DNA from: Bacteroidales bacterium
GTDB lineage: Bacteria > Bacteroidota > Bacteroidia > Bacteroidales > UBA932
Length of the DNA: 34,921 bases
Direction of reading: 5' to 3'
Assembly (NCBI GenBank): GCA_028708215.1
Contig: JAQVZL010000012.1
Coordinates: 1-34,921, forward strand
In this document: piece after piece, positions 580-30,310 of the stretch
Numbering within the stretch: the stretch's first letter is position 1
Layout: every line of letters begins with the position of its first letter
Notes under the pieces: model-generated
What the model was told of the DNA's origin: nothing
Databases searched by the model: none
What the model saw: the letters and a program-made list of their open reading frames with translations, nothing else
Position numbers and translations under genes: made by a program

Positions 580-618
580 TATTTTTTATTAAATTTACTT
601 AGTTTGCTTGATTGTAGG

Positions 619-652
619 CAAAGATAAATAATTGGGGGAATATATGACAAAA
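619..652 (-). promoter_or_regulatory. Bacteroidetes-type promoter for the S46 peptidase gene
   Basis: On the minus strand the sequence reads TTTTG, 21 nt, TATCTTTG. This matches the Bacteroidetes primary sigma factor consensus TTTG/TAnnTTTG. Transcription would start about 35 nt before the peptidase ATG at 579. The -33 box overlaps the start codon region of the divergent glycerate kinase gene. Confidence 0.6.
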
Positions 653-3571: not shown

Positions 3572-5725
3572 ATGAAAGTTTATCCCACTCAAAATGTTCG
3601 CAACGTAGTGCTTATAGGAAATAGTAAGTCTGGAAAGACTACTCTTGCGGAAACCATGTTGTTTGAAGGCAAAGTCATTGACCGGCGTGGTTCGGTCGAA
3701 GCAAAAACAACTGTAAGTGACAATACAGAGATAGAACAAATTTATCAACGTTCAATCTATCCTACTCTCCTTTACACAGAGTTTATGGATACTAAGTTTA
3801 ACTTAGTTGATACCCCTGGTTCAGATGACTTTATAGGTGGAGTAATATCTGCTTTTAAAGTTGCCGATGCAGGAATAATGGTTATTAATGCACAGCATGG
3901 AGTTGAAGTGGGTACCGAAATATTATCTCGTTATGCAGAGAAACATTGTAAACCATTAATTCTAGCTCTTAATCAATTAGATCATGATAAAGCAAACTTT
4001 GAAGCTTCGCTAGAGTCGCTTACTAAGACATTTGGTAAAAAGGTTGTTGTTGTTCAGTTCCCAGTAGATGCTGGCACTGGTTTCACCTCTTTTGTAGATG
4101 TTCTTAAAATGAAAATGTATCGTTACACAGATGAAAGCGGAACTAGAGAAGAGCTGCCAATTCCAGAAGATCTAAAAGACCAGACCGATGAGTACTTACA
4201 GGAGCTGGTAGAGATGGCTGCAGAAAATGACGAGCCATTAATGGAAGCTTTCTTTGAAAAGGGAGAGCTTAGCGAAGAGGAGATTAAAAAAGGGCTTTCA
4301 ATAGGAATGGCTCAGTGCGAAATTATGCCACTATTTTGTATCTCTGCAAAAAAAGATATAGGTGTTAAAAGGTTAATGGAGTTTGTTATTAACGTTGCTC
4401 CAACTCCAGATAAATCTGTACAGAGATTAAAAGATGGAGAGATAGTTCCATGTGATGCTTCTGGGCAAACTTCACTATTTGTCTATAAAACTGCAATTGA
4501 GCCTCATCTGGGAGAGGTATCTTATTTTAGAGTAATGTCTGGTACGCTCAAAGAGGGTATGGATGTAGTTAATCACGAGACAGGAGCCAAAGAGAGAATT
4601 TCTGTAATTTATGCTGTTGCTGGTAAGAAGAGAGAGAAACTTACAGAAATTGTAGCAGGAGATATTGGTTGTGCAGTTAAACTAAAGAGTGTGAAAACAA
4701 ATCAAACTCTGAATGCTGGAAATAAAGAGTGGGCATTTGAACCTATAGAGTTCCCTCCTTCAAAATTCCGTACAGCAATTAGAGCTAAACAAGAGAAAGA
4801 TGAAGAGAAGTTGGGAGATATCCTTCACCGTGCACATGCAGAAGACCCTACTATAAAAGTTGAGTATTCAAAAGAGTTAAAACAGACTATTTTGAGTGGC
4901 CAAGGCGAGCATCATATTAATATTCTTAAATGGCATATTAATAATACTCACAAGTTAGAGGTAGATCTTATAACTCCTAAAATTCCTTATAGAGAAACTA
5001 TTACAAAAGTTGCTACTGCAAACTATCGCCACAAAAAGCAGTCTGGTGGTGCTGGTCAGTTTGGAGAGGTATATATCTTAATTGAGCCAGCAAAAGAGGG
5101 AGTTCCACCAAAAAATAGATTTAAGGTAGATGGCCATGAGTTAGTTCTAAACATTAAAGGTAAAGAGGAATACCCTATGGATTGGGGCGGAGTTTTAGAG
5201 TATTACAACTGTATAGTTGGAGGCTCTATTGATGCTCGTTTTATGCCAGCTATTCTTAAGGGTATTATGGAAAAAATGGAAGAGGGGCCATTAACTGGTT
5301 CTTATGCAAGAGATATTCGTGTGTTTGTATATGATGGTAAAATGCACCCAGTAGATTCAAACGAGATTTCATTTAAACTTGCAGGAAGAAACGCTTTTAG
5401 AGAAGCCTTTAAAAAAGCGGGACCTAAGATTATGGAGCCAGTTTACAATGTAGAGGTTTTGGTGCCGAGCGATTGTATGGGAGACGTAATGAGTGATTTA
5501 CAAAATAGAAGAGCTACAATAATGGGTATGAGTAGTGACAAGGGGTTTGAGATTCTTAACGCAAGAGTTCCTTTAGCCGAACTCAATAAATACTCTACTA
5601 CATTGAGCTCGCTCACTTCTGGTCGTGCAACTTTCACTATGACTTATGCAGACTATCAGCAGGTTCCTTCAGATGTTCAAGATAAGCTTCTTAAGGAGTA
5701 TGAAGCAAGTGAAGATGACGATTAA
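3572..5725 (+). CDS. fusA2: EF-G2-like translation elongation factor paralogue, GTPase centre altered
   Basis: The 717-aa product has the EF-G domain order: G domain (about 1-280), domain II (about 300-390), III, IV (YRETITK...KKQSGGAGQFGEVY) and V (VPSDCMGDVMSDLQNRRA). It is not canonical EF-G. The P-loop is GNSKSGKTT (residues 16-24) instead of AHIDAGKTT. Switch I lacks RGITI and reads QRSIYP. Switch II is DTPGSDDF (80-87), with Ser84 where translational GTPases keep the catalytic His. The G4 motif is NQLD (134-137). This pattern fits the Bacteroides thetaiotaomicron EF-G2 paralogue, reported to support translocation without GTP hydrolysis and to build up in carbon starvation. Function here is inferred from that. 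lolD follows 7 nt later. Confidence 0.9.
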   Translation: MKVYPTQNVRNVVLIGNSKSGKTTLAETMLFEGKVIDRRGSVEAKTTVSDNTEIEQIYQRSIYPTLLYTEFMDTKFNLVDTPGSDDFIGGVISAFKVADAGIMVINAQHGVEVGTEILSRYAEKHCKPLILALNQLDHDKANFEASLESLTKTFGKKVVVVQFPVDAGTGFTSFVDVLKMKMYRYTDESGTREELPIPEDLKDQTDEYLQELVEMAAENDEPLMEAFFEKGELSEEEIKKGLSIGMAQCEIMPLFCISAKKDIGVKRLMEFVINVAPTPDKSVQRLKDGEIVPCDASGQTSLFVYKTAIEPHLGEVSYFRVMSGTLKEGMDVVNHETGAKERISVIYAVAGKKREKLTEIVAGDIGCAVKLKSVKTNQTLNAGNKEWAFEPIEFPPSKFRTAIRAKQEKDEEKLGDILHRAHAEDPTIKVEYSKELKQTILSGQGEHHINILKWHINNTHKLEVDLITPKIPYRETITKVATANYRHKKQSGGAGQFGEVYILIEPAKEGVPPKNRFKVDGHELVLNIKGKEEYPMDWGGVLEYYNCIVGGSIDARFMPAILKGIMEKMEEGPLTGSYARDIRVFVYDGKMHPVDSNEISFKLAGRNAFREAFKKAGPKIMEPVYNVEVLVPSDCMGDVMSDLQNRRATIMGMSSDKGFEILNARVPLAELNKYSTTLSSLTSGRATFTMTYADYQQVPSDVQDKLLKEYEASEDDD

Positions 5726-5732
5726 TTAAAAG

Positions 5733-6386
5733 ATGATAAAGGCTCAAAATATTAATAAATCTTTTGGGAATCTTTTAGTCCTAAAAGGGATAGATTTTGA
5801 AGCAAAAGATTCTGAGGTATTAAGTATAGTTGGAGCAAGTGGGGCTGGAAAGTCTACTTTGCTCCAAATACTTGGTACGCTTTCGCGTCCAGATACAGGA
5901 AAGGTTTTTATAGATGGGAAAGATGTTTTTGCTTTGAAGTCAAATAATTTAGCCGATTTTAGAAATAAAAAAATAGGATTTGTTTTTCAATTCCACCATC
6001 TATTGCCAGAGTTTACTGCTTTAGAGAATGTGGCTATTCCTGCCTTAATTGGCAAAGCAAGCATGTCTGCCGCAAAAGAGAAAGCAAGGGAGTTGTTAAC
6101 TTTATTGGGTCTCTCTAGTAGGCTCTCTCACAAACCATCTGAATTGAGTGGAGGAGAGCAGCAGAGAGTTGCTATTGCAAGAGCACTTGTTAATAACCCG
6201 TCTGTTCTTTTTGCCGATGAACCTTCTGGGAACTTAGATACATCTACTAAAGAAGAGATTCATAAGCTTTTTTTTGATTTAAGAGATAGGTTTGGTATTA
6301 CAATAATAATTGTAACACATGATAGAGAGTTAGCAGCCTTGAGCGATAGAACTCTTGAAATGAGAGATGGCAAGTTTCTATTTTAA
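5733..6386 (+). CDS. lolD: ABC transporter ATPase, LolD type (lipoprotein release)
   Basis: This 217-aa ATPase has Walker [10 protein letters not shown] (about residues 34-42), Q-loop [18 protein letters not shown], signature [15 protein letters not shown], Walker [13 protein letters not shown] and the switch His in [20 protein letters not shown] is typical of the LolD/MacB/FtsE group, and the closest fit is LolD. LolD powers LolCE, which removes lipoproteins from the inner membrane for transfer to the outer membrane. The LolC/E membrane partner is not in this window, so the partner and exact substrate are inferred. It lies 7 nt after the EF-G2 gene and its 3' end overlaps the methyltransferase gene by 20 nt, so the three are probably co-transcribed. 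Confidence 0.87.
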
Positions 6387-7155
6387 AAAATTTGTAGTAG
6401 AGCAATCGAACTCGGCAATGAAAGTTAACACAGATGGTGTTCTTTTAGCTGCTTGGGTCTCTTTAGATGCTCCTGTTAAACTTTTAGATATTGGTTCGGG
6501 CACAGGTGTTATCTCTCTAATAATAGCTCAAAGATTAGAAGAGATACTCTCTAATAATTTCAATATAACAGCAATAGATGTAGATTATAACTCCTATCTG
6601 GAGTCTTATAACAATTTTAAAAACTCTATTTGGTCAGATAATTTAGAAGCTCTTCATATCTCTTTGCAAGACTTGTATCTAGATTATAAATCCTCTACCG
6701 TTGGCCAGGGTAAATTTAATTTGATTCTCTCTAACCCACCTTTTTTCACTAACTCTCTACCAGCTCCTTCTAAAAGGAGAAATATTGCAAGGCACAACCA
6801 CTCCTTGCCTTTAGAGCTATTGTTGGAGTCATCTACCCTTCTGCTTAAAGAGGGAGGCCTATTGGCTGTTGTTTTGCCTGTAGAAGAGGGAGAGAGACTA
6901 TTGGAGATGGTCTCTGCTAACAAAGAGTTTGTTGTTAAAAGAGTATGTAAGGTAAAAACAGTTTTATCTAAGCCTCCAAAAAGATATCTTATAGAGCTCT
7001 GTATGCTAAAAAACACTCTATTGGTTGCAAAGGATGCACATTTTGAGCTAAAACAAGAGACTCTTGTTATTCAGCAGAAGGGAGGGGAGTGTTATACTCA
7101 AGAGTACAATGAGTTGGTTAAAAGGTTTTACCTTAAGGAGTTAAAAACAGATTGA
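6367..7155 (+). CDS. trmN6: tRNA1(Val) (adenine(37)-N6)-methyltransferase, TrmN6/YfiC family
   Basis: This 262-aa enzyme is a Rossmann-fold SAM methyltransferase. It starts [27 protein letters not shown], the typical family opening where the DG..L.AW run is conserved. [18 protein letters not shown] is the SAM-binding motif I. SNPPFF near residue 125 is the N6-adenine motif IV. The later run [17 protein letters not shown] also fits TrmN6. The family methylates N6 of A37 in tRNA1(Val). The ATG lies inside lolD and the genes overlap by 20 nt in different frames, suggesting translational coupling. Its stop is 1 nt from the stop of the convergent gene. Confidence 0.9.
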
Positions 7156-7156
7156 G

Positions 7157-7660
7157 CTATTTGGGTTCTTTATTATCTGTAGGCTGGCGTGCTCCACTGC
7201 GTAGCTGATGAATCATCTTTATTCGAAAATTCTCTTCTGTAGCATACATCTTTGCAACTTTCTCTACAGGGAATATTTTCAGGAATTTTTTGTAGTACTC
7301 TTTATGAATTTCGCCCTCTGCAGTAGTGTTAGAGATATAGGTTTCCATAAGGCTTTTCAACTCTTGGTCGGTTGCTTTCTGTTCATTGTCGCAGACAATT
7401 CTGTTAATAGATCTAAGTGCTTGAAAAGATCTTCTATTTGCTCTTTCGCGAGCTCTCCAATATTCGTTATATAGTGGCCAAAAGTTTTCGGCCTCGTCTG
7501 GTGTAAGCTCTAACTCGGCACTAAAAAAGGCAATTTTTGCACTTTGAATTTGTTGGTACCTTTGACTTTTGTGCTGTTGTCTCTGTGCCTCGGTGCGTGG
7601 TTGTGCAGTAAGTGAAACTGCAAATGTGCATATAAGAGAAAGGATTATTAATTTTTTCAT
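7157..7660 (-). CDS. Small exported protein of an ECF sigma operon
   Basis: The product is 167 aa from the ATG at 7660 (MKKLIILSLICTFAVSLTAQ), a clear signal peptide; the track's longer start at 7687 is not needed. The mature part is helical and charged, with TPDEAENFWPLYNEYWRARERANRRSFQALRSIN. This resembles small periplasmic proteins that databases often call sensor of ECF-type sigma factor, and it is loosely like the CpxP/Spy helical fold. It is last in the run transketolase N, transketolase C, ECF sigma factor, one-TM protein. It may sense envelope stress or act as a chaperone, but this is inference from position and general form. Confidence 0.7.
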   Translation of the reverse strand: MKKLIILSLICTFAVSLTAQPRTEAQRQQHKSQRYQQIQSAKIAFFSAELELTPDEAENFWPLYNEYWRARERANRRSFQALRSINRIVCDNEQKATDQELKSLMETYISNTTAEGEIHKEYYKKFLKIFPVEKVAKMYATEENFRIKMIHQLRSGARQPTDNKEPK

Positions 7661-7673
7661 AATAAATAATGAA

Positions 7674-8138
7674 TTAATCTTGTACATCTAAATAAGAGAG
7701 AGTTATAAGATCTACATTTTCACTTAAGTAGTCTATAAGTTCATCTTCTGTGATTTGCTCGTTAGTAGTAGTTAGCGAGTCTATAGAGCTGTAAAAGAAA
7801 TCTACAAAAGTAGATTTTAAAAAGCCCTCTTCTACATATTCAATGTTAGAGCCTATTATGGTAGTAGCAGAACCACTTTTATCTCTTAAAGAGAAATTGC
7901 TATCTGTAGGGAAAATGTGAAATATTGTATATGCAAATAAAAACACAAAAGCGAATAGAGATACTAGCCCTAATTGGGGCTTAGCAACTGTCCAAAAACC
8001 AGTTTTTTGAGTTTGTGCCGAAATTTTATCTGAGATATCTACTCGCACACTATTGAAATAGCCATTAGGAACCTTATATGGGTTCTCTTGTAGGTGCTTC
8101 TTATTAGCAGGCTCTTCTATGTTAAAATTTGTTCTCAT
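7674..8138 (-). CDS. One-TM protein downstream of an ECF sigma factor, possible anti-sigma
   Basis: This 154-aa protein has a cytoplasmic N-terminus with ENPYKVPNGYF at about residues 18-28, a motif common in Bacteroidetes membrane proteins encoded next to ECF sigma factors. One hydrophobic segment follows (LGLVSLFAFVFLFAYTIFHIF, about residues 55-76), then an acidic C-terminal part (EQITEDELIDYLSEN). It lies 30 nt after the sigma factor gene and 13 nt before the small exported protein gene. The topology and position suggest a membrane anti-sigma factor, but no ZAS or FecR-type motif is seen, so the role is inferred. Confidence 0.65.
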   Translation of the reverse strand: MRTNFNIEEPANKKHLQENPYKVPNGYFNSVRVDISDKISAQTQKTGFWTVAKPQLGLVSLFAFVFLFAYTIFHIFPTDSNFSLRDKSGSATTIIGSNIEYVEEGFLKSTFVDFFYSSIDSLTTTNEQITEDELIDYLSENVDLITLSYLDVQD

Positions 8139-8168
8139 ATCTCTTTGACTATCTAAACTTCAAAAGGA

Positions 8169-8711
8169 TTAAATAGATTCTTTTAAAATTTCCTGAATTT
8201 TTTTAAATGCGTGGTGATAGGAGGCTTTTAGAGCTCCAACAGAGGTGTTTAAAATCTCTGAAATCTCTTCATATTTTAGTTCGTCGTAGTAGCGCATATT
8301 AAAAACAGCTCTCTGTTTTGGAGGGAGAGTCATTATTGCTTTACGAAATACTCTTTGGGTATTGTCTCCATCAAACCAAGGGTCTGCCTCTAATTGGTTT
8401 TCTACCTGTTTAGAATAATCACTTAAAGAGAGAAAAGATCTTAGCTTGGAGCGTTTCAAAAAGGTTAAAGATTCGTTGGTGGCAATTCTATATAACCAAG
8501 TAAAGAGCCTGGACTCCTCTCTAAATTTGGGCAGAGCACCCCAGGCCTTTATGAATGTATTTTGCAGAATGTCGTTAGTATCTTCGTGAGAAGTTACAAG
8601 TTTTCTAATGTGCCAATATAATCTTTCACTATGCTTTTCAACAATAAGGTTAAAGGCGTAATTTTCTTTCCCCTTTTCTCTAAACAGTGCTAAGAGATCC
8701 TTATCGTCCAT
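8169..8711 (-). CDS. ECF (sigma-70 family) RNA polymerase sigma factor
   Basis: The 180-aa product has the two-domain ECF layout. Sigma region 2 covers about residues 15-85 (HEDTNDILQNTFIKAWGALPKFREESRLFTWLYRIATNES), including the conserved D-LQ-TF--AW run and the FTWLYRIA region. Region 4 covers about 120-178 (LPPKQRAVFNMRYYDELKYEEISEILNTSVGALKASYHHAFKKI), a helix-turn-helix that should read the -35 element. No region 1 or 3 is present. The ATG lies 12 nt after the transketolase C gene stop, so it is probably read from the transketolase promoter as well. The two downstream genes look like its regulators. Target genes are not known. Confidence 0.93.
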   Translation of the reverse strand: MDDKDLLALFREKGKENYAFNLIVEKHSERLYWHIRKLVTSHEDTNDILQNTFIKAWGALPKFREESRLFTWLYRIATNESLTFLKRSKLRSFLSLSDYSKQVENQLEADPWFDGDNTQRVFRKAIMTLPPKQRAVFNMRYYDELKYEEISEILNTSVGALKASYHHAFKKIQEILKESI

Positions 8712-8723
8712 TAGTTTAATAGA

Positions 8724-9680
8724 TTACTTACGTTTTATAACTTTTTTGGCAGCTTCTATTATGGTTGCCGAGTTTAATTTATACTCTTCCATTAGTTGTG
8801 CAGGAGTACCGCTTTGGCCAAAAATATCGTCTACTGCAACAATCTCTACCGGAGTTGGAACTTCTCTTGCAAGAACACCTGCGATGAGCTCTCCCATACC
8901 TCCTGCTATTAAATGCTCCTCTGCAGTTACTACAGCTTTTGTCTTAGCCGCCGATTCTATGACTGCTTTTACATCTAAGGGTTTAATGGTATGTATGTTT
9001 ATTAGTTCAACAGAGATACCCTCTTTTTCTAAAGAGTCTGCTGCTTCAATAGCTTCCCATACCATATGGCCAGTAGCAAATATAGTAACATCTTTCCCTT
9101 GAGATAATGTTACTGCTTTGCCTATTTCAAAAGGGGCATCTTCTTTTGTAAAGTTAGGAACAGAAGGGCGCCCAAAACGTAGATATACAGGGCCTTCGTG
9201 TTCTGCAATTGCTATTGTTGCAGCTTTTGTTTGGTTGTAGTCGCAAGGGTTTATTACTGTGAAGTTTGGTAACCCTCTCATTAGACTAATATCTTCCATT
9301 GTTTGGTGGGTTGCACCATCTTCTCCAAGGGTAATTCCTGCATGGGATGCACATATTTTTACATTGGTCTCTGAGTAGGCAATTGATTGACGTACTTGGT
9401 CATATACTCTACCTGTAGCAAACTCGGCAAATGTTCCTGCAAACGGGATTTTACCGCTAAGCGCCATACCCGCAGCTGTACACATCATATTTGCCTCGGC
9501 AATACCACATTGAATAAATCTTTCTGGAAACTCTTTTTCAAAGGCATTCATCTTTAGTGAGCCAGTGAGGTCTGCACAAAGGGCAACAACATTCTCATTT
9601 TTTTTCCCTAGTTCTAGAAGCCCGGCACCAAAGCCAGAGCGTGTATCTTTATTTCCACTGTTTTTAAATTTCTCTTTCAT
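8724..9680 (-). CDS. Transketolase, C-terminal subunit
   Basis: This 318-aa protein is the pyrimidine-binding and C-terminal half of a split transketolase (or a close thiamine diphosphate relative such as a DXS-like enzyme). It starts with a short lead and then the core [32 protein letters not shown] at about residues 59-76 contains the catalytic Glu that activates thiamine diphosphate. [16 protein letters not shown] and LRFGRPSVP are further family motifs. The last third ([17 protein letters not shown] onward) is the C-terminal transketolase domain. It follows the N-terminal subunit gene by 34 nt. Together they form the full enzyme, which moves two-carbon units between pentose-phosphate sugars. 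Confidence 0.93.
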
Positions 9681-9714
9681 ATCTGTAGTTTGAACGGTCT
9701 AAATATTATTACTT

Positions 9715-10560
9715 TTAAAAGTCGCCTAGAGTCTCTTTGAGTTGAGAAAGGGCATTTTCAGTCTCTTGTGCATTAGGAGCTTTTCCGTGCCAATGGTGTG
9801 TCCCTTGCATAAAATCTACTCCTCGGCCCATATCGGTTTTCATTAGCAGCATTTTAGGTTTCCCATCTCCAGCTAAACTTTTAGCCCACTGTAAAGCCTC
9901 TTTTATTGCATCAATATTGTGCCCATCTACAACCTTACAACTCCAGCCGAAAGCCTCCCATTTAGGTTTTAAGTCTCCAGTATCTAGAACTTCAGTTACG
10001 GGGCCATCTATCTGTTGCCCGTTCCAGTCTGTAATTACAATTAGTCTATCTAGTTTTTTGTGTGCTGCAAAAAGGGCAGCTTCCCAAATTTGTCCCTCGT
10101 TGCTTTCACCATCGCCAATTACTGCATAAACAAAATTATCTTCTTTATTAATTTTTTTAGTTAGAGCTGCTCCACATGCAACAGAGAGCCCTTGGCCTAG
10201 TGAGCCAGTTGCTACATGAACTCCTGGGAGCCCTTTGTCTATAGAGGGGTGCCCTTGGAGCCTAGATCCCATTTTGCGGAATGTTGCAAGCTCTTCAATT
10301 GGGAAGTAACCGCTACGAGCTAAGGTACTATAGTAAGCTGGTGTAAGATGGCCTGCAGATAAAAAGAACATATCTTTATCTTTGCCATCTCTTCTCCACT
10401 CTTTGGGTGAGTGATTCATTTCAGAGAAAAAAAGTGTAGTTAGCACCTCTGTAATACTGAGTGACCCGCCAGGGTGTCCAGACGAAGCCATGTTTACCAT
10501 ACGAATAATATCTCTCCTTATTTGAGAAGAGACCTCTTGTAAATTTGTGTTTTGAGCCAT
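9715..10560 (-). CDS. Transketolase, N-terminal subunit
   Basis: This 281-aa protein is the diphosphate-binding half of a split transketolase. MASSGHPGGSLS at about residues 24-35 and VHVATGSLGQGLSVACGAAL near residue 115 are family motifs. GDGESNEGQIWEA followed by ITDWNGQQ is the GDG...N motif that binds thiamine diphosphate and magnesium. GTHHWHGKAPN near the end carries catalytic-site His residues. The gene has a normal ATG start and a candidate TAnnTTTG promoter upstream, shared in overlapping divergent form with lepA. Two-gene transketolases are common in several anaerobic lineages. The substrate in vivo could be another ketose, but transketolase is the best call. Confidence 0.94.
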   Translation of the reverse strand: MAQNTNLQEVSSQIRRDIIRMVNMASSGHPGGSLSITEVLTTLFFSEMNHSPKEWRRDGKDKDMFFLSAGHLTPAYYSTLARSGYFPIEELATFRKMGSRLQGHPSIDKGLPGVHVATGSLGQGLSVACGAALTKKINKEDNFVYAVIGDGESNEGQIWEAALFAAHKKLDRLIVITDWNGQQIDGPVTEVLDTGDLKPKWEAFGWSCKVVDGHNIDAIKEALQWAKSLAGDGKPKMLLMKTDMGRGVDFMQGTHHWHGKAPNAQETENALSQLKETLGDF

Positions 10561-10625
10561 TATTTTTTTGATATTTATTACTGAATTAGACTTTAAAATT
10601 AATAAATGATACTCTACTATTTTTA

Positions 10626-10633
10626 CAAAGATA
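10626..10633 (-). promoter_or_regulatory. Candidate -7 box of the transketolase operon
   Basis: The minus strand reads TATCTTTG, a perfect TAnnTTTG. It lies about 65 nt upstream of the transketolase N start. No clear -33 TTTG is seen. The lepA promoter faces away from it about 30 bp further on. Confidence 0.45.
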
Positions 10634-10663
10634 ACATCAAACTTATAATTTTAGAATTATTTT

Positions 10664-10671
10664 TATCTTTG
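10664..10671 (+). promoter_or_regulatory. Candidate -7 box of lepA
   Basis: TATCTTTG is a perfect TAnnTTTG box 28 nt upstream of the lepA ATG at 10700, giving a leader of about 24 nt. The -33 region is not convincing. Confidence 0.5.
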
Positions 10672-10699
10672 CAACAATGATTAATCCCAAAATTGTAAA

Positions 10700-21377: not shown

Positions 21378-22568
21378 TTAGCTTATAACGCCCAGCTCTT
21401 TGCCTACTTTAGTGAATGCAGCTACGCATTTGTTTAAATGTTTGATTTCGTGCCCTGCGCTAATTTGTACACGAATACGTGCTTGATCTTTAGGAACAAC
21501 TGGGAAGTAGAAGCCAATAACATATATTCCCTCTTCTAGCATTCTCTCTGCAAATTTTTGGGATAATTTTGCATTGTAGAGCATAACTGCACAAATAGCA
21601 GATTCAGTTGGTTTTATATCGAAACCTGCTGCTATCATTTTGTTTACAAAATACTCTGTATTGGTGTGCAGTTTGTTTTGAAGTTCATTGGTTTCAGACA
21701 TTAGATCAAACATTGCACTTCCTGCTGCTGCAACCATAGGGGGGATTGAGTTAGAGAAGAGATATGGACGAGACCGTTGGCGTAACATATCTATTATCTC
21801 TTTTTTGCCTGTAGTAAAGCCACCAATAGCTCCGCCAAATGCTTTCCCTAGGGTGCCAGTAATAATTTCTATTTGCCCAATTAGGTTAAAGAGTTCTGTA
21901 GTTCCTTTCCCTTTCTCTCCTACAACACCTGCAGAGTGAGACTCATCTACCATAATCATAGCGTTGTATTTATTGGCTAGTTCATAGATTTTATCTAGTG
22001 GTGCTACGTTGCCATCCATAGAGAAAACGCCATCTGTAACAATTATACGAAACCGTTGAGCTTGAGATACTTTAAGGCACTTTTCTAACTCTTCCATATT
22101 GGCATTTGCATATCTATATCTTTGTGCTTTGCAGAGCCTAACTCCATCTATTATAGATGCGTGGTTAAGAGAATCAGAGATAATTGCATCTTCTTCTGTA
22201 AGTAGAGGCTCAAAAACACCACCATTTGCATCGTAGCAAGATGCATATAGAATAGTATCTTCTGTACCAAAAAATTGAGCTATTTTCTTCTCAAGTTCAA
22301 GGTGGTAATCTTGTGTCCCACAAATAAAGCGTACGCTAGACATGCCGAACCCTCTTTCATCTAAAGCCTTTTTTGCTGCTTCTACAAGAACTGGACTATT
22401 AGATAGTCCAAGGTAGTTATTGGCACAAAAGTTGAGAACTTCTTGGCCAGAATCAACTTTAATAGACGCTTGCTGGGGTGTTACAATTACTCTCTCTTCT
22501 TTGTAAAGGCCAGCTTCTTCTATTGATGTTAGTTCCTTCTGAAGGAACTCTTTAAAGTTTGTATACAT
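21378..22568 (-). CDS. kbl: Glycine C-acetyltransferase (2-amino-3-ketobutyrate CoA ligase)
   Basis: This 396-aa enzyme is a PLP-dependent alpha-oxoamine synthase. Kbl cleaves 2-amino-3-oxobutyrate with CoA to glycine and acetyl-CoA, the second step of threonine breakdown. NFCANNYLGLSN (about residues 46-57), SVRFICGTQDYH (about 78-89), IMVDESHSAGVVG (PLP-contacting Asp and His), and ITGTLGKAFGGAIGGF with PLP-binding Lys242 are all family motifs. Length is exactly typical. Threonine dehydrogenase (tdh) is not next to it. Related synthases (BioF, SPT) are possible, but RFICGT and the overall match favour Kbl. Bacteroidetes also use SPT for sphingolipids, and this is the main alternative. Confidence 0.9.
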   Translation of the reverse strand: MYTNFKEFLQKELTSIEEAGLYKEERVIVTPQQASIKVDSGQEVLNFCANNYLGLSNSPVLVEAAKKALDERGFGMSSVRFICGTQDYHLELEKKIAQFFGTEDTILYASCYDANGGVFEPLLTEEDAIISDSLNHASIIDGVRLCKAQRYRYANANMEELEKCLKVSQAQRFRIIVTDGVFSMDGNVAPLDKIYELANKYNAMIMVDESHSAGVVGEKGKGTTELFNLIGQIEIITGTLGKAFGGAIGGFTTGKKEIIDMLRQRSRPYLFSNSIPPMVAAAGSAMFDLMSETNELQNKLHTNTEYFVNKMIAAGFDIKPTESAICAVMLYNAKLSQKFAERMLEEGIYVIGFYFPVVPKDQARIRVQISAGHEIKHLNKCVAAFTKVGKELGVIS

Positions 22569-22606
22569 ATATAGTTGATTTATAAAATTTTAAATTACTG
22601 TTTACA

Positions 22607-22614
22607 CAAAGTTA
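22607..22614 (-). promoter_or_regulatory. Candidate -7 box of kbl
   Basis: The minus strand reads TAACTTTG, a TAnnTTTG match, about 40 nt before the kbl ATG at 22568. No -33 TTTG at a normal distance was found. Confidence 0.4.
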
Positions 22615-22657
22615 ATAAGTAAATCACAAAATATTACTAAAAAACAGAAAAACTATT

Positions 22658-22689
22658 TTTGTTTTTGTAGTTTTAGTGTAGTACTTTTG
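22658..22689 (+). promoter_or_regulatory. Bacteroidetes-type promoter of the tetR-efflux cluster
   Basis: TTTG at 22658-22661, 20 nt, then TACTTTTG at 22682-22689 fits the consensus well. It lies 35 nt upstream of the tetR ATG. Confidence 0.6.
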
Positions 22690-22724
22690 CAACCTTATTT
22701 TTAAGTGGTGTTTAATATACTAAA

Positions 22725-23330
22725 ATGGATCTTAAAACAAAAATAATTGAAAGGTCGCTTCAGCTTTTTTTAGAAAGAGGCTGTAAGGCTGTTACAATGG
22801 ACCAAATTGGTCATGAAAATGGTATATCTAAACGTACTCTTTACGAGGTCTTTACAGATAAGTCTCAACTGTTAGAAGAGTGCTTACAATTAATGTACTT
22901 GCAAATGAGAGATTATGCTACCAATTTTAATAATAAATCTGAGAATGTAATAGATGGTCTCTTTAAACTTCATGATAATCAATCAGATGTATTATTAGAT
23001 TTGAAAAGAAACTTCTTTTCAGATTTAAAAAGATACTACTACGGAATTTATAAGAAATCTATTGAGTACTTTATTGAGTTCCATAAAAAAATGACCCACG
23101 ATTTTATTATTAGAGGTCAAAAAGAGGGACTCATAAGAGACAATATAGATACCGAACTTGTTTCAAAAGTAATTATTGAAATATCTAGTGTTCTTGAAAA
23201 TTCAGAAGTTTTTTCTCTAAAAGCTTATTCTAGAAAAGAGCTTTTTAGAGAGGTAATTATATTTTATGTAAGAGGGATTTGTACAGTTAAAGGCATAGAG
23301 TTAATAGATAATAAATGCAACCCCCTTTAA
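22725..23330 (+). CDS. TetR/AcrR-family regulator of the RND efflux genes
   Basis: This 201-aa protein has a TetR N-terminal HTH at about residues 5-50: TKIIERSLQLFLERGCKAVTMDQIGHENGISKRTLYEVFTDKSQLLEECL. The core TMDQI...G.SKRTLYE.F.DK.QL is a clean family match. The remaining 150 residues are a helical ligand-binding and dimer domain with no close motif. The gene is first in the run tetR, tolC, MFP, RND, all on the plus strand, so it is probably the local repressor and may respond to efflux substrates. An inverted repeat that may be its operator lies just after its stop. Confidence 0.93.
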   Translation: MDLKTKIIERSLQLFLERGCKAVTMDQIGHENGISKRTLYEVFTDKSQLLEECLQLMYLQMRDYATNFNNKSENVIDGLFKLHDNQSDVLLDLKRNFFSDLKRYYYGIYKKSIEYFIEFHKKMTHDFIIRGQKEGLIRDNIDTELVSKVIIEISSVLENSEVFSLKAYSRKELFREVIIFYVRGICTVKGIELIDNKCNPL

Positions 23331-23337
23331 ATAGACA

Positions 23338-23356
23338 ATATTGTAATTAGCAATAT
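23338..23356. promoter_or_regulatory. Inverted repeat before the tolC gene, possible TetR operator
   Basis: ATATTG, 7 nt, CAATAT between tetR and the TolC-family gene has the size and symmetry of a TetR operator. The arms are only 6 bp and AT-rich, so the call is weak. Confidence 0.3.
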
Positions 23357-23408
23357 AATATAAAACAAATATTTAAGAATTTTAATAAAGAATAAATATA
23401 AGAGCTAT

Positions 23409-24770
23409 ATGGAATTTAGAAAAAGTATAAAAAAAATAGTTACACTATTTATGCTTCTCTTTTTGAGTGTGGGGTTACATGCTCAAACCGCTGTTGCTAC
23501 CTCCCAAGTTTCGGAAGAGCAGCTTAATCTAACTCTAGAGAGTGCAGTTGAGCTAGCTTTAGACCAAAACCTTACAGTTAAAATAGCAGACCAAGAGATT
23601 AAAAGGGTAGATTGGTTAACTAAAGAGAACTGGTATGCTCTCTTACCAGGAGTAAGTGCAAGTGGGCAGTACACCAATAATGTATTGAAGCCTGTTTTCT
23701 TTTCAGATTTTTTCCCTGGAGGTAAAATGGAGGTTGGTTCTACTCATAGTTATGCAGTTACTGGAGCTCTTCAAGTGCCAATTATATCTATGCCTCTTTT
23801 TAAGAACATAGAGCTTTCAGAGATAGAACTTAAGGGAGCATTGGAATCTTTACGTAATACTAAAATAGAGCTATTAGCGCAGGTGAAAAACTCTTTTTAC
23901 GGTATATTAATGATGGAAGAGTCACTTAAGGTTTTACAAGAGAGTTATAACAATGCAAAAGAGACAGCCAATAATATTAAAAAAATGTACGAAAATGGGC
24001 TAGCATCTGAATACGATATGATTCGTTCAGATGTCTCTGTTAGAAATATTACTCCCTCTATAGCTCAGGCAAAAAGTGGATTGGAGTTAGCAAAGATGCA
24101 ACTTAAAGTACTTCTATCGCTAGATTTAAACACTCCTATTAAATTAGAAGGAGATATAAATTCCTATAAAGAGCAGATGGTAGCCTCTTCTCCCACTTTG
24201 CATCCGCTATTAGAGGGAAACAGTAACCTCCGTACTTTAGATATTCAGCTGGAGTCTTTAAATAAAACTTTTGAACTTATTAGGTCTCAAAGGTTACCTT
24301 CACTTGCAGGGTTTGCAAATTATCAATTGCAAATGCAGAGTAATGAATTCACATTTAGCGAAGCTTGGACAAACTCTTTTGCAGTAGGGCTTTCGTTACA
24401 AATTCCTATTTTCAATAAACTTTCAATAACTCTTAAAGAGAAACAGACAAAAGTTGGCATTCAACAATTACAATATCAAAGAGAATTAATGGAGAATAAT
24501 TTAGCAATATCTGTAAGAAACTCACAAAATGAGATGAATAGGGCTAAAGTGCAGCTTGAATCAGATATGGAAGCAGTAAAACAAGCAACAAAGGGTTACC
24601 ATATAGCTAAAGTTAGGTACAATACTGGAGCAGGTACTCTTCTGGAACTTAACGATACAGAGATGGCATTGACCAATTCAAAATTAAATCTTAATCAAAC
24701 AATATATGACTATATAAAAGCTAAGACAGAATACGATAAAGTTCTTGGCAAAGAGAGTTTAATTAATTGA
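23409..24770 (+). CDS. TolC-family outer membrane efflux protein
   Basis: The 453-aa product has a signal peptide (residues 1-25, ending HAQ) and the two long helical repeats of the OEP family. LTLESAVELALDQNLTVKIADQEIKR (about 40-65) starts repeat one. ELNDTEMALTNSKLNLNQTIYDYIKAKTEYDKVLG near the end closes repeat two. It forms the trimeric outer-membrane channel of the tripartite pump. It lies 78 nt after tetR and 55 nt before the membrane fusion protein gene. Confidence 0.94.
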   Translation: MEFRKSIKKIVTLFMLLFLSVGLHAQTAVATSQVSEEQLNLTLESAVELALDQNLTVKIADQEIKRVDWLTKENWYALLPGVSASGQYTNNVLKPVFFSDFFPGGKMEVGSTHSYAVTGALQVPIISMPLFKNIELSEIELKGALESLRNTKIELLAQVKNSFYGILMMEESLKVLQESYNNAKETANNIKKMYENGLASEYDMIRSDVSVRNITPSIAQAKSGLELAKMQLKVLLSLDLNTPIKLEGDINSYKEQMVASSPTLHPLLEGNSNLRTLDIQLESLNKTFELIRSQRLPSLAGFANYQLQMQSNEFTFSEAWTNSFAVGLSLQIPIFNKLSITLKEKQTKVGIQQLQYQRELMENNLAISVRNSQNEMNRAKVQLESDMEAVKQATKGYHIAKVRYNTGAGTLLELNDTEMALTNSKLNLNQTIYDYIKAKTEYDKVLGKESLIN

Positions 24771-24825
24771 TAAGATTTAGATTAAAAGAGATAGTAAATA
24801 GAAATAAAATAATAAATCAAACAAG

Positions 24826-25857
24826 ATGAAAAAATTGTTGTCGCTAATTGTTACAGGCTTACTTATTATTACTGCTTGTACAGAAACAGAAACTGCTAAG
24901 GAATTGGGTAGTGAAGAGAAAACAGTCTCTGTTAAGGTAGAGACTATTCAGAAAAAATTTGTAGATCAAACAATAGAATTTACAGGTAATATAGAGCCGT
25001 TAATAAAAAACAATATATCTAGTTCTGCTGCTCAAAGAGTAGAGAAAATATATGTAGAGGTTGGCTCAAAAGTTAAAAAGGGTCAGCTGCTAGTAGAGAT
25101 GGAAAGCTTAAATTACGCGCAAGCTAAAATTCAGCTTGAAAATCTTAAAGTAGACCTTTCAAGGACAGAAGCGCTCTACAAAGCAGGAGGTATTCCAGAA
25201 CAGCAGTACGATCAAATTCTAACACAAGTAAAAATCTCTGAAGAGAGCCTAGCTAACTTAAGTAACAATACAAAGCTCCTCTCTCCTATAGATGGAATTG
25301 TTACCCAAAAGAATTTTGACAATGGAGATTTAGCCGTTGGGCAGCCAATTCTAGTAGTAATGAAAATGCAACCTGTAAAGATACTTATTAACATTTCAGA
25401 AGAGTTTTTCCCTGAAGTGAAAATAGGTACTCCTGTAAAAATAGTGCTAGATATTTACCCTAATAAGGAGTTTCCTGGTAAAGTAATGCTAATTCACCCT
25501 GTTATAGACGCTACTACTCGTTCTTTTCAGGCCGAGGTTAGAATAGATAATCCATCTCTTCTATTGCGTCCAGGAATGTTTGCTCGCGCCATTGTAGATT
25601 TTGGCTCGCGAGAAAAGGTGGTTGTTCCAGATAGAGCAGTTATAAAGCAGTCTGGTACAAATGATAAATACGTATATGTTATAAATGGAGATAGAGTTAC
25701 CTATACAAAAGTTGAACTAGGCCGTAGAATAGATTCTATTTATGAGGTAGTTAGCGGTGTTGAGCAAGGGCAGCAGGTAGTAGTTGCTGGTAATACCTCT
25801 TTAATGGACAACACTAAAATCCAAATTTCTGAATCTAAATTAGATATTACACTTTAG
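24826..25857 (+). CDS. RND efflux membrane fusion protein (periplasmic adaptor lipoprotein)
   Basis: This 343-aa protein is a lipoprotein with lipobox LLIITAC (Cys at about residue 18). The adaptor folds follow: barrel-sandwich VEKIYVEVGSKVKKGQLLVEM (about residues 75-95), a short helical hairpin (about 98-140), the return strand LLSPIDGIVTQKNFDNGDLAVGQP (about 145-170), and a beta-barrel with ATTRSFQAEVRIDNP and LRPGMFARAIV. It links the RND pump to the TolC-type channel. The stop is 5 nt before the RND gene, so they are coupled. Confidence 0.94.
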   Translation: MKKLLSLIVTGLLIITACTETETAKELGSEEKTVSVKVETIQKKFVDQTIEFTGNIEPLIKNNISSSAAQRVEKIYVEVGSKVKKGQLLVEMESLNYAQAKIQLENLKVDLSRTEALYKAGGIPEQQYDQILTQVKISEESLANLSNNTKLLSPIDGIVTQKNFDNGDLAVGQPILVVMKMQPVKILINISEEFFPEVKIGTPVKIVLDIYPNKEFPGKVMLIHPVIDATTRSFQAEVRIDNPSLLLRPGMFARAIVDFGSREKVVVPDRAVIKQSGTNDKYVYVINGDRVTYTKVELGRRIDSIYEVVSGVEQGQQVVVAGNTSLMDNTKIQISESKLDITL

Positions 25858-25862
25858 TTATT

Positions 25863-28800
25863 ATGAAAATATATGAAAGCGCAGTAAGAAAACCAGTTAC
25901 TACAGCACTTGTATTTGTTGCGATAGTTGTTTTAGGGTTATTCTCTCTATCTAAGCTCTCTGTAGACCTCTATCCAGAAATAGAGTTAAATGCAGTAACT
26001 GTTATGACAACATATTCGGGAGCAAGCGCAACCGATATAGAACAGAACGTTACTAAAAGGCTAGAGATGTCGCTTAGTACAGTATCTGACCTAAAAAAGA
26101 TTACCTCTACCTCTAAAGATAATATCTCACTAATAACTGTAGAGTTTGAGTACGGTACAGACATGGACGAGGCTGTTAACGATATACGGAGTGTTATTGA
26201 TATGCAGAGGAATTTTCTTCCAGACGATATAGATGCTCCAGTGGTTCTTAAGTTTAACTCTAGTATGATGCCTATACTCTTCTTAAGTGCTAGTACTTCA
26301 TCTAACCCTCAAGGGTTATATAAAATTCTAGAAGAGAAGGTGGCAAATCCCATAAATAGAATAAACGGGGTAGCTTCTGTATCTATCTCTGGTGCTCCGC
26401 AAAGAGAGATTCAGGTTCTTACCAATCCTAAAAAGATGGAGGCCTATAACCTAACTATAGAGCAGTTAGCAGGAGTTTTAGCTCTTGAAAATAGGAATGT
26501 TCCAGGAGGTAATATGGATATAGGGTCAGAAACTTTTTCTGTTAAAATAGAGGGAGAGTTCAAAACTAGCGATCAAATAAAAGATATAATTGTTGGTAGC
26601 TATATGGGTAAAAACATCTTTGTGAAAGATGTTGCAACGGTGAAAGATACGCTAAAAGAGAGATCTACAATTGTTCTTACAAACGGAGAGGTCTCTGCAA
26701 TGATTGTTATTCAAAAACAATCTGGCTCTAACGTTGTAGATATTGCAAATAAAATTAACAAAGAGCTACCAAATATTAGAGCAACGCTCCCTCCAGATCT
26801 GGAGCTTAACGTAGTTATAGATACTTCTGATTTTATTAAAAAGAGTATTAGGTCTCTATCTAACACAGTTATGCTAGCAGGGCTATTTGTAATGGTTGTA
26901 GTGCTGTTTTTCTTGGGTAGGTGGAGAGCAACATTTATAATTATTCTAACAATTCCTGTATCGCTCATTGCTGCCTTTATTTACTTAATGGCAACGGGCA
27001 ACACTTTAAATATAATATCTCTAAGTTCATTATCTATTGCCATAGGTATGGTGGTAGACGATGCTATTGTAGTTTTAGAAAATATAACCGAACATATAGA
27101 GAGGGGTAGCAAACCAAAAGATGCTGCAATATATGCAACTAATGAGGTTGCTGTAGCCGTTGTAGCTTCTACTTTAACAATTGTAGCTGTTTTCTTCCCT
27201 TTAACTATGGTATCTGGTCTTGCTGGTATAATGTTTAGACAGTTAGGCTGGATTGTAACTATAATTATTTCTGTCTCTACACTTGCAGCACTTACTCTAA
27301 CTCCTATGCTAAGTGGGTTGATGCTTAAAAAAGATCCAAAAAGAGGAAAGTTATTTGAGCTGTTTTACCTTCCTATAGAAAAAGCTTTGAACGCCTTAGA
27401 TGGTGGTTATGAGAGGCTACTCAAATTTGCCTTAAAAAATAGAACAGTAGTTATTGTAGCCTCATTTGGGTTGTTTTTAGCGAGTCTTTTTTTATTGAGG
27501 AGTGTTGGCACAGACTTTTTCCCAGAAACAGATAACTCGCAAATTTCTATACAGGTAGAGCTTCCGGTTGGAACAAGAGTAGAGCATTCCCGTATTCTTA
27601 GTAGCCATATTTACTCTATATGGAGTGAGAAATATCCAGAGATAGAAGTGCTTCAAACCTCTATGGGACAGTCAGATGGTTCAAACGTGTTTATGTCTAT
27701 GGGAAGTTCAGGCACAAATCTAATCTCTTACACAGCTAGGCTTACAGATGCGTCTGATAGAGATAGGGATATTTTTTTAATAGCAGATATGATGCGTGCA
27801 GATTTAGACGCTATTCCAGAGATTTATAAATATGAGGTAACCCCAGGAGGTTCTGGAGGAGGAATGGGTGCAGGCTCTTCAGATATAGAGATGGATGTAC
27901 TCGGTTATAATATGGAAGATGCAGCTGTTGTGGCAGAACAAATTTCAGATTTGATGAAAGGAGTTAAAGGGCTAAGAGATATTAAAATAAGTAGAGAAGA
28001 TTATATACCTCAATTGAGAGTAGAGTTTGATAGAGATAAATTAGCTATGAATGGGCTTAATTTAACAACTGCTGCATCTGCTGTTAGAAATCGTATAAAT
28101 GGGCTTATTACAACTAGGTTCCGTGAAGATGGAGAGGAGTATGATATAGTGGTTAAAAATAGCATTAATTTTAGAACCAATATAGAAGATATAAGCTCTA
28201 TACAGCTCTACAATAATGCGGGAAAGCCTGTACGATTAAGTGAGGTTGGAGAGGTTATTGAAGATTTTGCTCCCCCTTCAATTGAGCACGTAGATAGAGA
28301 GCGTGTAATAAAAGTATCTGGAACAATCTACAAAAGAGCGCTGGGCGATATTGCAAAAGATATTAATAGAGGTGTTTCCAAAATAGATCTACCAGAGAAT
28401 ATTGCTGTGAAGATGACAGGTTCATTCGAAGAGCAGCAAGACTCTTTTGCAGATATGTACACTCTATTGTTACTAGTAGCAATGCTTACCTATATTGTAA
28501 TGGCTGCTCAGTTTGAGTCTTTTAGAGACCCCTTCATTATTATGATGTCTTTGCCATTTGCTTTTACTGGTGTTTTTGTAGCACTCTGGCTTACCGGAAC
28601 ATCTTTAAGCCTTATTGCTTTGATTGGAGCAATTATGCTAGTTGGAATTGTGGTTAAGAATGGAATTGTTTTAATTGACTACATTAATCTTAACAAAGAG
28701 CGGGGGATGAGTGTTATGCGTTCTATTGTTAAGGGAGGAAAGTCTCGTTTAAGGCCAGTGCTTATGACCACACTAACTACTATTTTGGGGATGACTCCTA

Positions 28801-28985
28801 TGGCCATAGGCATTGGAGATGGTTCAGAAATTTGGCAACCAATGGGTATCTCAATAATTGGTGGTTTAACACTCTCTACACTTCTTACTTTGCTTGTTAT
28901 TCCAACTATTTATTGCTCTCTTAATGTGCGAGATATCAAGAAAATAAGGAGAGCACATTTAAAAGGTTTAAAGAGCAAAAATTAA
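25863..28985 (+). CDS. RND-family inner membrane efflux pump (HAE1 type)
   Basis: This 1040-aa protein has the full RND layout: TM1 (about residues 11-30), a large periplasmic loop, TM2-6 (about 335-490), a TM7 near 530, a second loop, and TM8-12 (about 865-1020). TM4 has the proton-relay pair Asp399-Asp400 in VVDDAIVVLENI, and a Lys in TM10 (VGIVVKNGIVLIDYI). The motifs place it in the hydrophobe/amphiphile group, where substrates are drugs, bile salts or dyes. The heavy-metal CusA group is less likely, as its marker Met/Glu residues are not seen. PGGSGGGMGAG in the second loop is a short flexible run. The PII-like gene follows after 28 nt. Confidence 0.95.
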   Translation: MKIYESAVRKPVTTALVFVAIVVLGLFSLSKLSVDLYPEIELNAVTVMTTYSGASATDIEQNVTKRLEMSLSTVSDLKKITSTSKDNISLITVEFEYGTDMDEAVNDIRSVIDMQRNFLPDDIDAPVVLKFNSSMMPILFLSASTSSNPQGLYKILEEKVANPINRINGVASVSISGAPQREIQVLTNPKKMEAYNLTIEQLAGVLALENRNVPGGNMDIGSETFSVKIEGEFKTSDQIKDIIVGSYMGKNIFVKDVATVKDTLKERSTIVLTNGEVSAMIVIQKQSGSNVVDIANKINKELPNIRATLPPDLELNVVIDTSDFIKKSIRSLSNTVMLAGLFVMVVVLFFLGRWRATFIIILTIPVSLIAAFIYLMATGNTLNIISLSSLSIAIGMVVDDAIVVLENITEHIERGSKPKDAAIYATNEVAVAVVASTLTIVAVFFPLTMVSGLAGIMFRQLGWIVTIIISVSTLAALTLTPMLSGLMLKKDPKRGKLFELFYLPIEKALNALDGGYERLLKFALKNRTVVIVASFGLFLASLFLLRSVGTDFFPETDNSQISIQVELPVGTRVEHSRILSSHIYSIWSEKYPEIEVLQTSMGQSDGSNVFMSMGSSGTNLISYTARLTDASDRDRDIFLIADMMRADLDAIPEIYKYEVTPGGSGGGMGAGSSDIEMDVLGYNMEDAAVVAEQISDLMKGVKGLRDIKISREDYIPQLRVEFDRDKLAMNGLNLTTAASAVRNRINGLITTRFREDGEEYDIVVKNSINFRTNIEDISSIQLYNNAGKPVRLSEVGEVIEDFAPPSIEHVDRERVIKVSGTIYKRALGDIAKDINRGVSKIDLPENIAVKMTGSFEEQQDSFADMYTLLLLVAMLTYIVMAAQFESFRDPFIIMMSLPFAFTGVFVALWLTGTSLSLIALIGAIMLVGIVVKNGIVLIDYINLNKERGMSVMRSIVKGGKSRLRPVLMTTLTTILGMTPMAIGIGDGSEIWQPMGISIIGGLTLSTLLTLLVIPTIYCSLNVRDIKKIRRAHLKGLKSKN

Positions 28986-29013
28986 GAGGGCTATACATTA
29001 AAAATATTAAGAG

Positions 29014-29307
29014 ATGAAAGCTGTAATGATAATATATAACCAAGCGCACTCACAAGTAGTATTGGAAATCTTAGATAAATGTACTGTAAGAGGCTTTACT
29101 AAATGGGTAGATGTACAAGGTAGGGGTTCTAAAAGAGGAGAACCCCACTACGGAACACATGCATGGCCATCAAAAAATATGGCAACTTTAGCTGTAGTTC
29201 CGCAGGAGAGGGTCCAGCCCCTTATGCTAGAACTTAAAAAAGCCAATGAAATGGCAGAAGATCAAGGATTGAGAGCTTTTGTATGGGAAGCAGATGTTCT
29301 TGTGTAG
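29014..29307 (+). CDS. Small PII-like protein at the end of the RND operon
   Basis: This 97-aa protein looks like the PII fold (a trimeric beta-alpha-beta ferredoxin-like module). It reads MKAVMIIYNQAHSQVVLEILDKCTVRGFTKW, then VQGRGSKRGEPHYGTHAWPSKN, which fills the T-loop position, then ATLAVVPQERVQPLMLELKK and VWEADVLV. No uridylylation Tyr or the ammonium-transport markers of GlnB/GlnK are recognised. Similar small proteins occur beside RND pumps (DUF3240-like), so it may sense a ligand and tune the pump. It is 28 nt after the RND gene. The fold is inferred by eye; the role is a guess. Confidence 0.65.
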   Translation: MKAVMIIYNQAHSQVVLEILDKCTVRGFTKWVDVQGRGSKRGEPHYGTHAWPSKNMATLAVVPQERVQPLMLELKKANEMAEDQGLRAFVWEADVLV

Positions 29308-29394
29308 TTTTGCTTTTTAGTTACTGTTAGGATTTTAAAAAAAAACAGACTAATTTAGCACTCACTTTATGTTTAATTTATAATTTTAGAAATA

Positions 29395-29712
29395 ATGGCA
29401 ATAGCAGTAAACGATTCAAACTTTGATGAGATAATTTTGAAATCTAGTAAGCCGGCAGTGGTAGATTTCTGGGCACCATGGTGTGGCCCATGTAGGATGA
29501 TAGGGCCTATAATTGAGGAGCTTGCAGCAGAGTACGAGGGTAAAGCAGTAATATCTAAGTGCGATGTAGACTCAAGTGAAGAGGTTCCTGTAAAATATGG
29601 AATCCGTAATATTCCTACAATTCTATTCTTTAAAGATGGAGAGTTGAAAGATAAAATTGTTGGCTCTACAACTAAATCTGCGATTGTATCAAAGATTAAT
29701 TCACTAATGTAA
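29395..29712 (+). CDS. trxA: Thioredoxin
   Basis: Thioredoxin reduces disulfides in cytoplasmic proteins. The 105-aa product has the active site FWAPWCGPCRM with Cys30 and Cys33, Asp24 buried before it, and the cis-Pro loop GIRNIPTILFFKDGE near residue 75. No signal peptide is present, so it is cytoplasmic. Length is normal. It sits 87 nt after the PII-like gene and 7 nt before a beta-barrel protein gene, with which it may be transcribed. Confidence 0.97.
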   Translation: MAIAVNDSNFDEIILKSSKPAVVDFWAPWCGPCRMIGPIIEELAAEYEGKAVISKCDVDSSEEVPVKYGIRNIPTILFFKDGELKDKIVGSTTKSAIVSKINSLM

Positions 29713-29719
29713 TTTTATT

Positions 29720-30310
29720 ATGAAGAAAATAACCACCCTTTTATTGCTAATTTTCCTTTCAACCGCACCAATGTGGTCTCAAGGAAGATTCGGTATTAAG
29801 GGAGGGTTAAATTTTAACTCCCTTAAAGATGTATCAGAAAATATTGATGATACATGGAAAAATCAAACAGGGTATCATTTGGGTCTGACTTATCAAGCTA
29901 AAATTCCCTTTTTGGGGCTTGGATTTCAGCCAGAACTTCTGTTTGAAAGACAAAAAACTCAAAATAGCATTAATCAAAGTCTCTATTTAGACTATTTGAC
30001 TCTACCAGTAAATATACAAATAGGGTTAGATCTTCTTTTGTTTAGACCTTTTGTAATGTTTAGCCCCTATATCTCATATGCTGTTGGCAAAGGAGATATG
30101 TTATCTGGTCAAGATTGGGACAGCATTAACAGGTTTGATTATGGCTATGGGCTTGGAGCAGGTGTAGATATTTGGAAACTTCAGGTTTCTGGAAAGTATA
30201 TTTGGGGTTTAGGCAAGTTGCAGGATGCAACTTCTCAACCAATTAACGGAGATACTTTTAAAAACGCAAAAATGGAGGGTTTCCAACTTTCAGTAGCTTG
30301 GATGTTTTAA
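29720..30310 (+). CDS. Outer-membrane beta-barrel protein (porin-like, OMP_b-brl family)
   Basis: This 196-aa protein has a signal peptide (residues 1-20, ending MWSQ) and then GRFGIKGGLNFNSLKDV, a common start of Bacteroidetes small outer membrane barrels. Strands alternate polar and nonpolar residues, as in YHLGLTYQAKI, LDYLTLPVNIQIGL, YGYGLGAGVDIW and VSGKYIWGL. The last residues (FQLSVAWMF) end in an aromatic, as outer membrane barrels do. Length suggests 8 to 10 strands. PLPVNIQ-like motifs also occur in the PorT group, but the match is too loose to claim PorT. The function is not known. Confidence 0.82.
   Translation: MKKITTLLLLIFLSTAPMWSQGRFGIKGGLNFNSLKDVSENIDDTWKNQTGYHLGLTYQAKIPFLGLGFQPELLFERQKTQNSINQSLYLDYLTLPVNIQIGLDLLLFRPFVMFSPYISYAVGKGDMLSGQDWDSINRFDYGYGLGAGVDIWKLQVSGKYIWGLGKLQDATSQPINGDTFKNAKMEGFQLSVAWMF

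Follow-up and report, generated by a model that had tools for sequence, protein, structure and literature searches.

A candidate PII-like accessory subunit encoded with a XepCAB-type RND efflux pump in Bacteroidota

Why should an operon for an RND efflux pump end in a gene for a small PII-like protein, and does that protein act on the pump beside which it is encoded? The question is raised by a 34,921-nucleotide contig of a Bacteroidales bacterium (the whole of this stretch is referred to below as the window), in which such a gene follows an RND permease gene by 28 nt. Here, we describe the identity and predicted fold of the protein, the inheritance of its gene, and the features of its T-loop and ligand site that bear on a possible partnership with the pump.

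A PII-like gene at the end of a five-gene pump operon

The PII-like gene is co-encoded with the pump as the last gene of its operon, in the order TetR-TolC-MFP-RND-PII (Table 1). The first-pass annotation of this DNA had described a 97-residue open reading frame at 29014-29307 on the + strand, 28 nt after a pump gene, as the fifth gene of an RND cluster, and the frame, its distance from the end of the RND gene (28985) and its place in the cluster were all confirmed. No terminator-like site was seen in a scan of the + strand from 22500 to 29800, and the genes downstream of the PII-like gene are trxA, one for a barrel protein of the outer membrane and a LOG-like gene. With 778 bits against NF033617, 561 bits against NF000282 and 444 bits against TIGR00914 (CusA/CzcA), all of them below the NCBIfam cut-offs, the permease appears to lie nearer to multidrug permeases than to those of the CusA/CzcA type. 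Homologues of the PII-like protein occur in 73 of 100 related genomes, and comparison with nine copies from the same genus (pN/pS 0.19-0.28) shows that the gene is under purifying selection.

Table 1. Positions of the pump operon, the PII-like gene and the loci used for comparison
Feature	Position	Strand	Basis or remark
TetR-family regulator	22725..23330	+	PF00440
TolC-type outer membrane efflux protein	23409..24770	+	PF02321
RND periplasmic adaptor (MFP), lipoprotein-like signal	24826..25857	+	TIGR01730 211 bits, cut-off 94.9
RND permease, AcrB/HAE1-like	25863..28985	+	PF00873 866 bits
PG0541-family PII-like protein (NF045581), 97 aa	29014..29307	+	ORF, Pfam, NCBIfam, AlphaFold2, Foldseek
T-loop codons, residues 36-52 (GRGSKRGEPHYGTHAWP)	29119..29169	+	AlphaFold2 low-confidence loop, conservation
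Second RND (contig-cut) and PG0541 paralogue	L061 (G000:C34) 1-1440		Window's own genome
Counterpart of the second pair in G082	G082:C16, L168 2583-6032		
Pump-only operon of G088	L161 (G088:C133) 4429-10690		Natural case for comparison
SMR/HAD genes between RND gene (or its former place) and PII-like gene	L101 3851-4982; L160 3851-4974; L162 1727-2717		

The protein belongs to a family that NCBIfam has already named, 'PG0541 family transporter-associated protein' (NF045581; score 110.6 bits, cut-off 45, with residues 2-92 aligned to positions 1-91 of the 91 in the model), and its association with transporters is likewise already in NCBIfam; what is new here is the tightness of the link between pump and PII gene. 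In sequence and five-gene order alike, the window protein and its operon show no material difference from the family of Porphyromonas gingivalis PG0541, and PG0538-PG0540 are presumably the genes of XepCAB. XepCAB is an RND pump of P. gingivalis that exports rifampin, puromycin and ethidium (PMC4790292). Among the papers searched, none deals with the function of PG0541; they mention it only as one of a set of Bacteroidales-specific proteins (PMC1887533) and as a hypothetical P. gingivalis gene that was up-regulated in a rat model (PMC4493947).

The PII-like layout first ascribed to the protein was borne out by several lines of comparison. The window protein matches PF00543 (Pfam P-II) at 35.7 bits (cut-off 25), 15 of 16 diverse PG0541 members match the P-II profile at E<0.1, and a sequence profile search of the PDB returns PII proteins, including CPII, at E of about 1e-4. 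An AlphaFold2 model of the monomer, built from 43 sequences (mean pLDDT 84.6), has a predicted beta-alpha-beta-beta-alpha-beta topology (E2-8, H10-22, E29-36, loop, E53-62, H64-80, E87-92), in which residues 37-52 are poorly determined and occupy the T-loop position between strands 2 and 3. When this model was compared with the PDB by Foldseek, CPII (5d4o) came first at E 3e-7, followed by PII, GlnK, SbtB and PotN structures (TM 0.65-0.80; top-match E 3e-7 to 1e-5). Because the Pfam and PDB profile matches, the modeled topology and the Foldseek matches all point to it, a PII fold is well supported, and the prediction of an unrelated fold, on which the first-pass annotation would have been abandoned, did not arise. 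A search of IMG/VR gave no relatives, and a fold search of a viral library gave nothing beyond weak ferredoxin-like matches.

DUF3240 (PF11582) had been suggested as another possible identity, and is unsupported. The DUF3240 PII-like proteins of Proteobacteria occur near metal RND pumps; they share a PII-like character and a link to RND genes with the window protein, whereas the pump here seems to resemble the multidrug type more than CusA/CzcA. The window protein had no DUF3240 match at E<=1, one of the 16 diverse members matched weakly (E 0.073), and a whole-genome search, which had no positive control, returned no match.

Inheritance of the PII-like gene with the pump

Gene order was followed in two surveys, one of 100 relatives together with about 300 phylum genomes and the other of 80 loci in named genomes of GTDB; these locus sets overlap, and counts from them are not additive. 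Among the relatives and the phylum, an RND gene lies upstream on the same strand in 45 of the 46 distinct PG0541 loci that passed as family members and were inspected, including a remote clade in which the PII-like protein is 23-30% identical to that of the window and the adjoining RND merely 32-39% identical. Among the named genomes, the RND gene is directly upstream in 71 of 80 loci (median gap 28 nt), counting one, L160, whose RND-PII gap of about 1.2 kb holds other genes; the other nine are cut by contig ends (four) or unlinked to RND (five). The linkage with RND genes on which the first-pass annotation had staked its reading is, therefore, strongly conserved by both counts. Annotated NCBI records of Parabacteroides distasonis and Bacteroides finegoldii likewise read TetR, TolC, adaptor, RND and PG0541 family transporter-associated protein.

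Some loci depart from this pattern in their immediate surroundings. In Prevotellaceae-labelled MAGs, the RND gene, or the place it once occupied, is set apart from the PII-like gene by an SMR-type (QacE-like) transporter gene and a HAD-phosphatase-like gene (Table 1). In addition, two records labelled as plasmids (L197 and L198; NZ_OY725754.1 and NZ_OY725917.1) carry housekeeping genes (pth, L25/Ctc and MutS family) beside the operon, and look like parts of a chromosome.

Conserved position could, in principle, reflect passive hitch-hiking, with a protein of unrelated role encoded by chance downstream of an RND operon. Within the genus of the window, the downstream trxA, outer-membrane protein and LOG genes are indeed syntenic in the same way, but this downstream synteny is confined to the neighborhood of that genus, and beyond it those neighbors change (trxA is kept in 9 of 80 loci) while the RND gene stays (71 of 80). 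We regard chance association as highly improbable, and it is largely refuted by the co-retention of pump and PII gene where the two are separated and by the existence of a second paralogous pair, to which we now turn.

Matches to the window's RND in the 100 relatives fall into orthologs above about 810 bits and others below about 580 bits, contig-cut or frame-broken pieces excepted. On this division, 71 genomes have both the PII gene and an orthologous RND, 26 have neither, two have the PII gene only and one has the RND only, an agreement of 97 in 100. The corresponding Fisher P of 1.4e-20 takes no account of shared ancestry or operon inheritance, and for this reason the separated cases weigh more. 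All five unlinked genomes hold exactly one PII copy and an orthologous RND elsewhere (47-57% identity, 994-1315 bits), the two genes being on different contigs in four genomes and, in the fifth, on the same contig at a distance of about 8.6 kb. The PII gene is inherited with the pump, even where the two genes are separated. As for the discordant genomes, the pump is actually there in one of the PII-only pair (G060), where it is cut by a contig end, and no orthologous RND was detected in the other (G052), which is incomplete. The RND-only genome (G088) is complete, and its TetR-TolC-MFP-RND cluster is followed by an ABC gene, with no PG0541 PII gene anywhere; the pump can, therefore, do without PII.

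These same genomes bear on the possibility that the protein is a soluble metabolic sensor or small-molecule binder with targets elsewhere, which shares the operon for the sake of co-expression under the same stress. Survival of the gene apart from the pump in five genomes would suit such a role, as would its presence without an orthologous pump in the incomplete G052; moreover, a search of the window's own genome with PF00543 gave no match besides the window protein, which could thus have assumed general roles. Yet the pump ortholog is kept in five of the five separated cases, and 26 of the 28 pump-less genomes are without the PII gene, one of the two exceptions being the contig-cut pump. We consider targets elsewhere an unlikely explanation.

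Further evidence of pairing comes from the window's own genome, where a second RND gene is immediately followed by one for another PG0541 protein, a divergent one that scores 69 bits (C34:1126-1398). Among 61 genomes, the only close relative of this paralogue is found in G082, 15 nt after a related RND. With a second paralogous pair in two genomes, pump and PII can be said to travel as pairs.

Linkage does not by itself single out the pump as the partner, because the TetR gene of the operon is nearly as conserved. In Corynebacterium, GlnK acts on AmtR, a TetR-family repressor, and the PII-like protein might similarly act on the TetR of the operon rather than on the pump, its ligand-bound form freeing TetR from DNA and so serving as a transcriptional feedback sensor. 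A TetR-family-looking gene heads the window operon and most of the PII-containing operons inspected, remote ones included. Against such a role, however, one remote operon (L072) has RND and PII with no TetR adjoining the cluster, G088 keeps TetR though it has lost PII, and the PII gene adjoins the permease gene, not tetR. Action through TetR is a serious alternative but, in our judgment, an unlikely one, and we favor the pump itself as the partner.

The T-loop and the putative ligand site

The Gly/Arg/His-rich T-loop string reported by the first-pass annotation, GRGSKRGEPHYGTHAW, was found at residues 36-51. Judged from the family alignment, no segment of the PG0541 protein is as conserved as the T-loop: residues 36-52 hold 8 of the 13 family-invariant residues (hypergeometric P 1.3e-4), and mean entropy is 0.59 bits in the loop versus 1.58 bits elsewhere in the protein. 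Such strong conservation is what would be expected of an element that contacts a partner. G36 and G38 are invariant in the 43 sequences, giving the classical Gly-x-Gly of the T-loop base (Gly35/Gly37). A metal-binding HxxxH (H45, H49) was considered as a family-wide logic and set aside, as it is not general: in the remote clade Arg takes the place of H49, and the second paralogue, which keeps WPGYN, has neither histidine. Across the wider PG0541 family, the T-loop histidines are partly conserved.

The window protein resembles GlnK of the GlnK-AmtB system in its fold, in the GxG of its T-loop base (VQGRGSKRG in the window protein, VKGFGRQKG in E. coli GlnK) and in the position of its gene beside that of a trimeric membrane transporter. 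It differs in that the partner gene here encodes an exporter, and in the residues of the classical switch. Gln39, which in classical PII closes the Mg-ATP/2-oxoglutarate site (PMC8395244), has no equivalent, since position 40, aligned with it in the GlnK comparison, is Lys and is variable in the 43 family sequences. The B-loop GDGK is absent from the window protein, in which the region reads QGLRAF, and a basic residue, often R87, lies near the Lys90 position in the family. The C-loop residues Arg101 and Arg103 are missing, as the protein stops at residue 97, before both, and the uridylylated Tyr51 is absent, the sole T-loop Tyr (Y46) being Y, F, L or M in the family. Because the Gln39 position is variable, GDGK is absent and the protein ends before the C-loop arginines, a classical 2-oxoglutarate/Mg-ATP switch is unlikely in the PG0541 protein; likewise, because the residue that closes the site is not conserved, the ligand is probably not 2-oxoglutarate.

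Perhaps the ligand cleft is altered as in CPII, which is possible by analogy. CPII is carboxysome-associated and, unlike the window protein, is not associated with an RND pump. The protein of Thiomonas intermedia (5d4l-5d4p, 5drk, 5ds7) is the closest in fold of the solved structures and also ranks near the top by sequence (about 26-28% identity); its ligand site is altered within a PII fold, as that of the window protein appears to be. Its structures are described by their depositors as bound to AMP, ADP or bicarbonate, and an adenine nucleotide or small anion is thus the nearest ligand precedent for the PG0541 protein.

A putative partnership with the pump

We postulate, with about even confidence, that the window protein serves a XepCAB-type RND pump as a PII-like accessory subunit, a trimeric regulator in the cytosol whose T-loop would dock on the RND trimer. 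RND permeases are trimers, and a PG0541 protein that forms a cytosolic trimer could bring its conserved T-loop up against the permease from the cytosolic side in a 3:3 complex, as in GlnK-AmtB and SbtB-SbtA. In these systems, the T-loop of GlnK inserts into Amt, 3:3 (PMC8395244), and that of SbtB inserts into SbtA (PMC8352866). The docked PII may then raise or lower the activity or assembly of the pump, an effect that would be set by a small ligand in the inter-subunit cleft. Co-retention, the second pair and the constraint on the T-loop strengthen the case for a functional partnership.

A basic C-terminal tail of the permease was examined as a signature of the docking site. Net charge of the tail is about +6 in linked RNDs, +1 in unlinked paralogues and +5 in the pump that lost PII; the comparison is confounded by clade, and the tail was rejected as a docking signature because it is kept in the pump that lost PII.

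It is tempting to extend this reading to the family as a whole, and to propose, somewhat more tentatively than for the window protein, that throughout the Bacteroidota PG0541 proteins serve as a dedicated class of PII-type regulators, cytosolic proteins that dock on RND multidrug pumps and gate them. Control of RND pumps is thought of as mainly transcriptional. If the proposal is true, drug exporters would also be subject to post-translational, metabolite-dependent control of the GlnK or SbtB kind, with a ligand logic that differs from 2-oxoglutarate. The small regulators of RND pumps treated in one review are the membrane peptides AcrZ and WatS1 (PMC10710835). A PII-type partner that tracks a single clade of pumps across a phylum, and is kept even where it has left its operon, offers a concrete and easily tested case for a multidrug exporter under direct metabolic control in the Bacteroidota of gut and mouth.

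SbtB-SbtA, on whose T-loop docking the proposed mechanism is modeled, likewise pairs a PII-like gene with that of a trimeric transporter in one operon. The window protein ends ...FVWEADVLV and is without the C-terminal CGPxGC present in some SbtB, and its partner gene encodes an RND permease, a different transporter family from SbtA. Matches in the phylum below the PG0541 cut-off were not accepted as family members, all but one of them looking by sequence like other PII-like proteins. The one inspected in context (L076 8409-9675), in a Bacteroidota genome, is an SbtB-like PII gene that comes immediately after the gene of an SbtA-like transporter.
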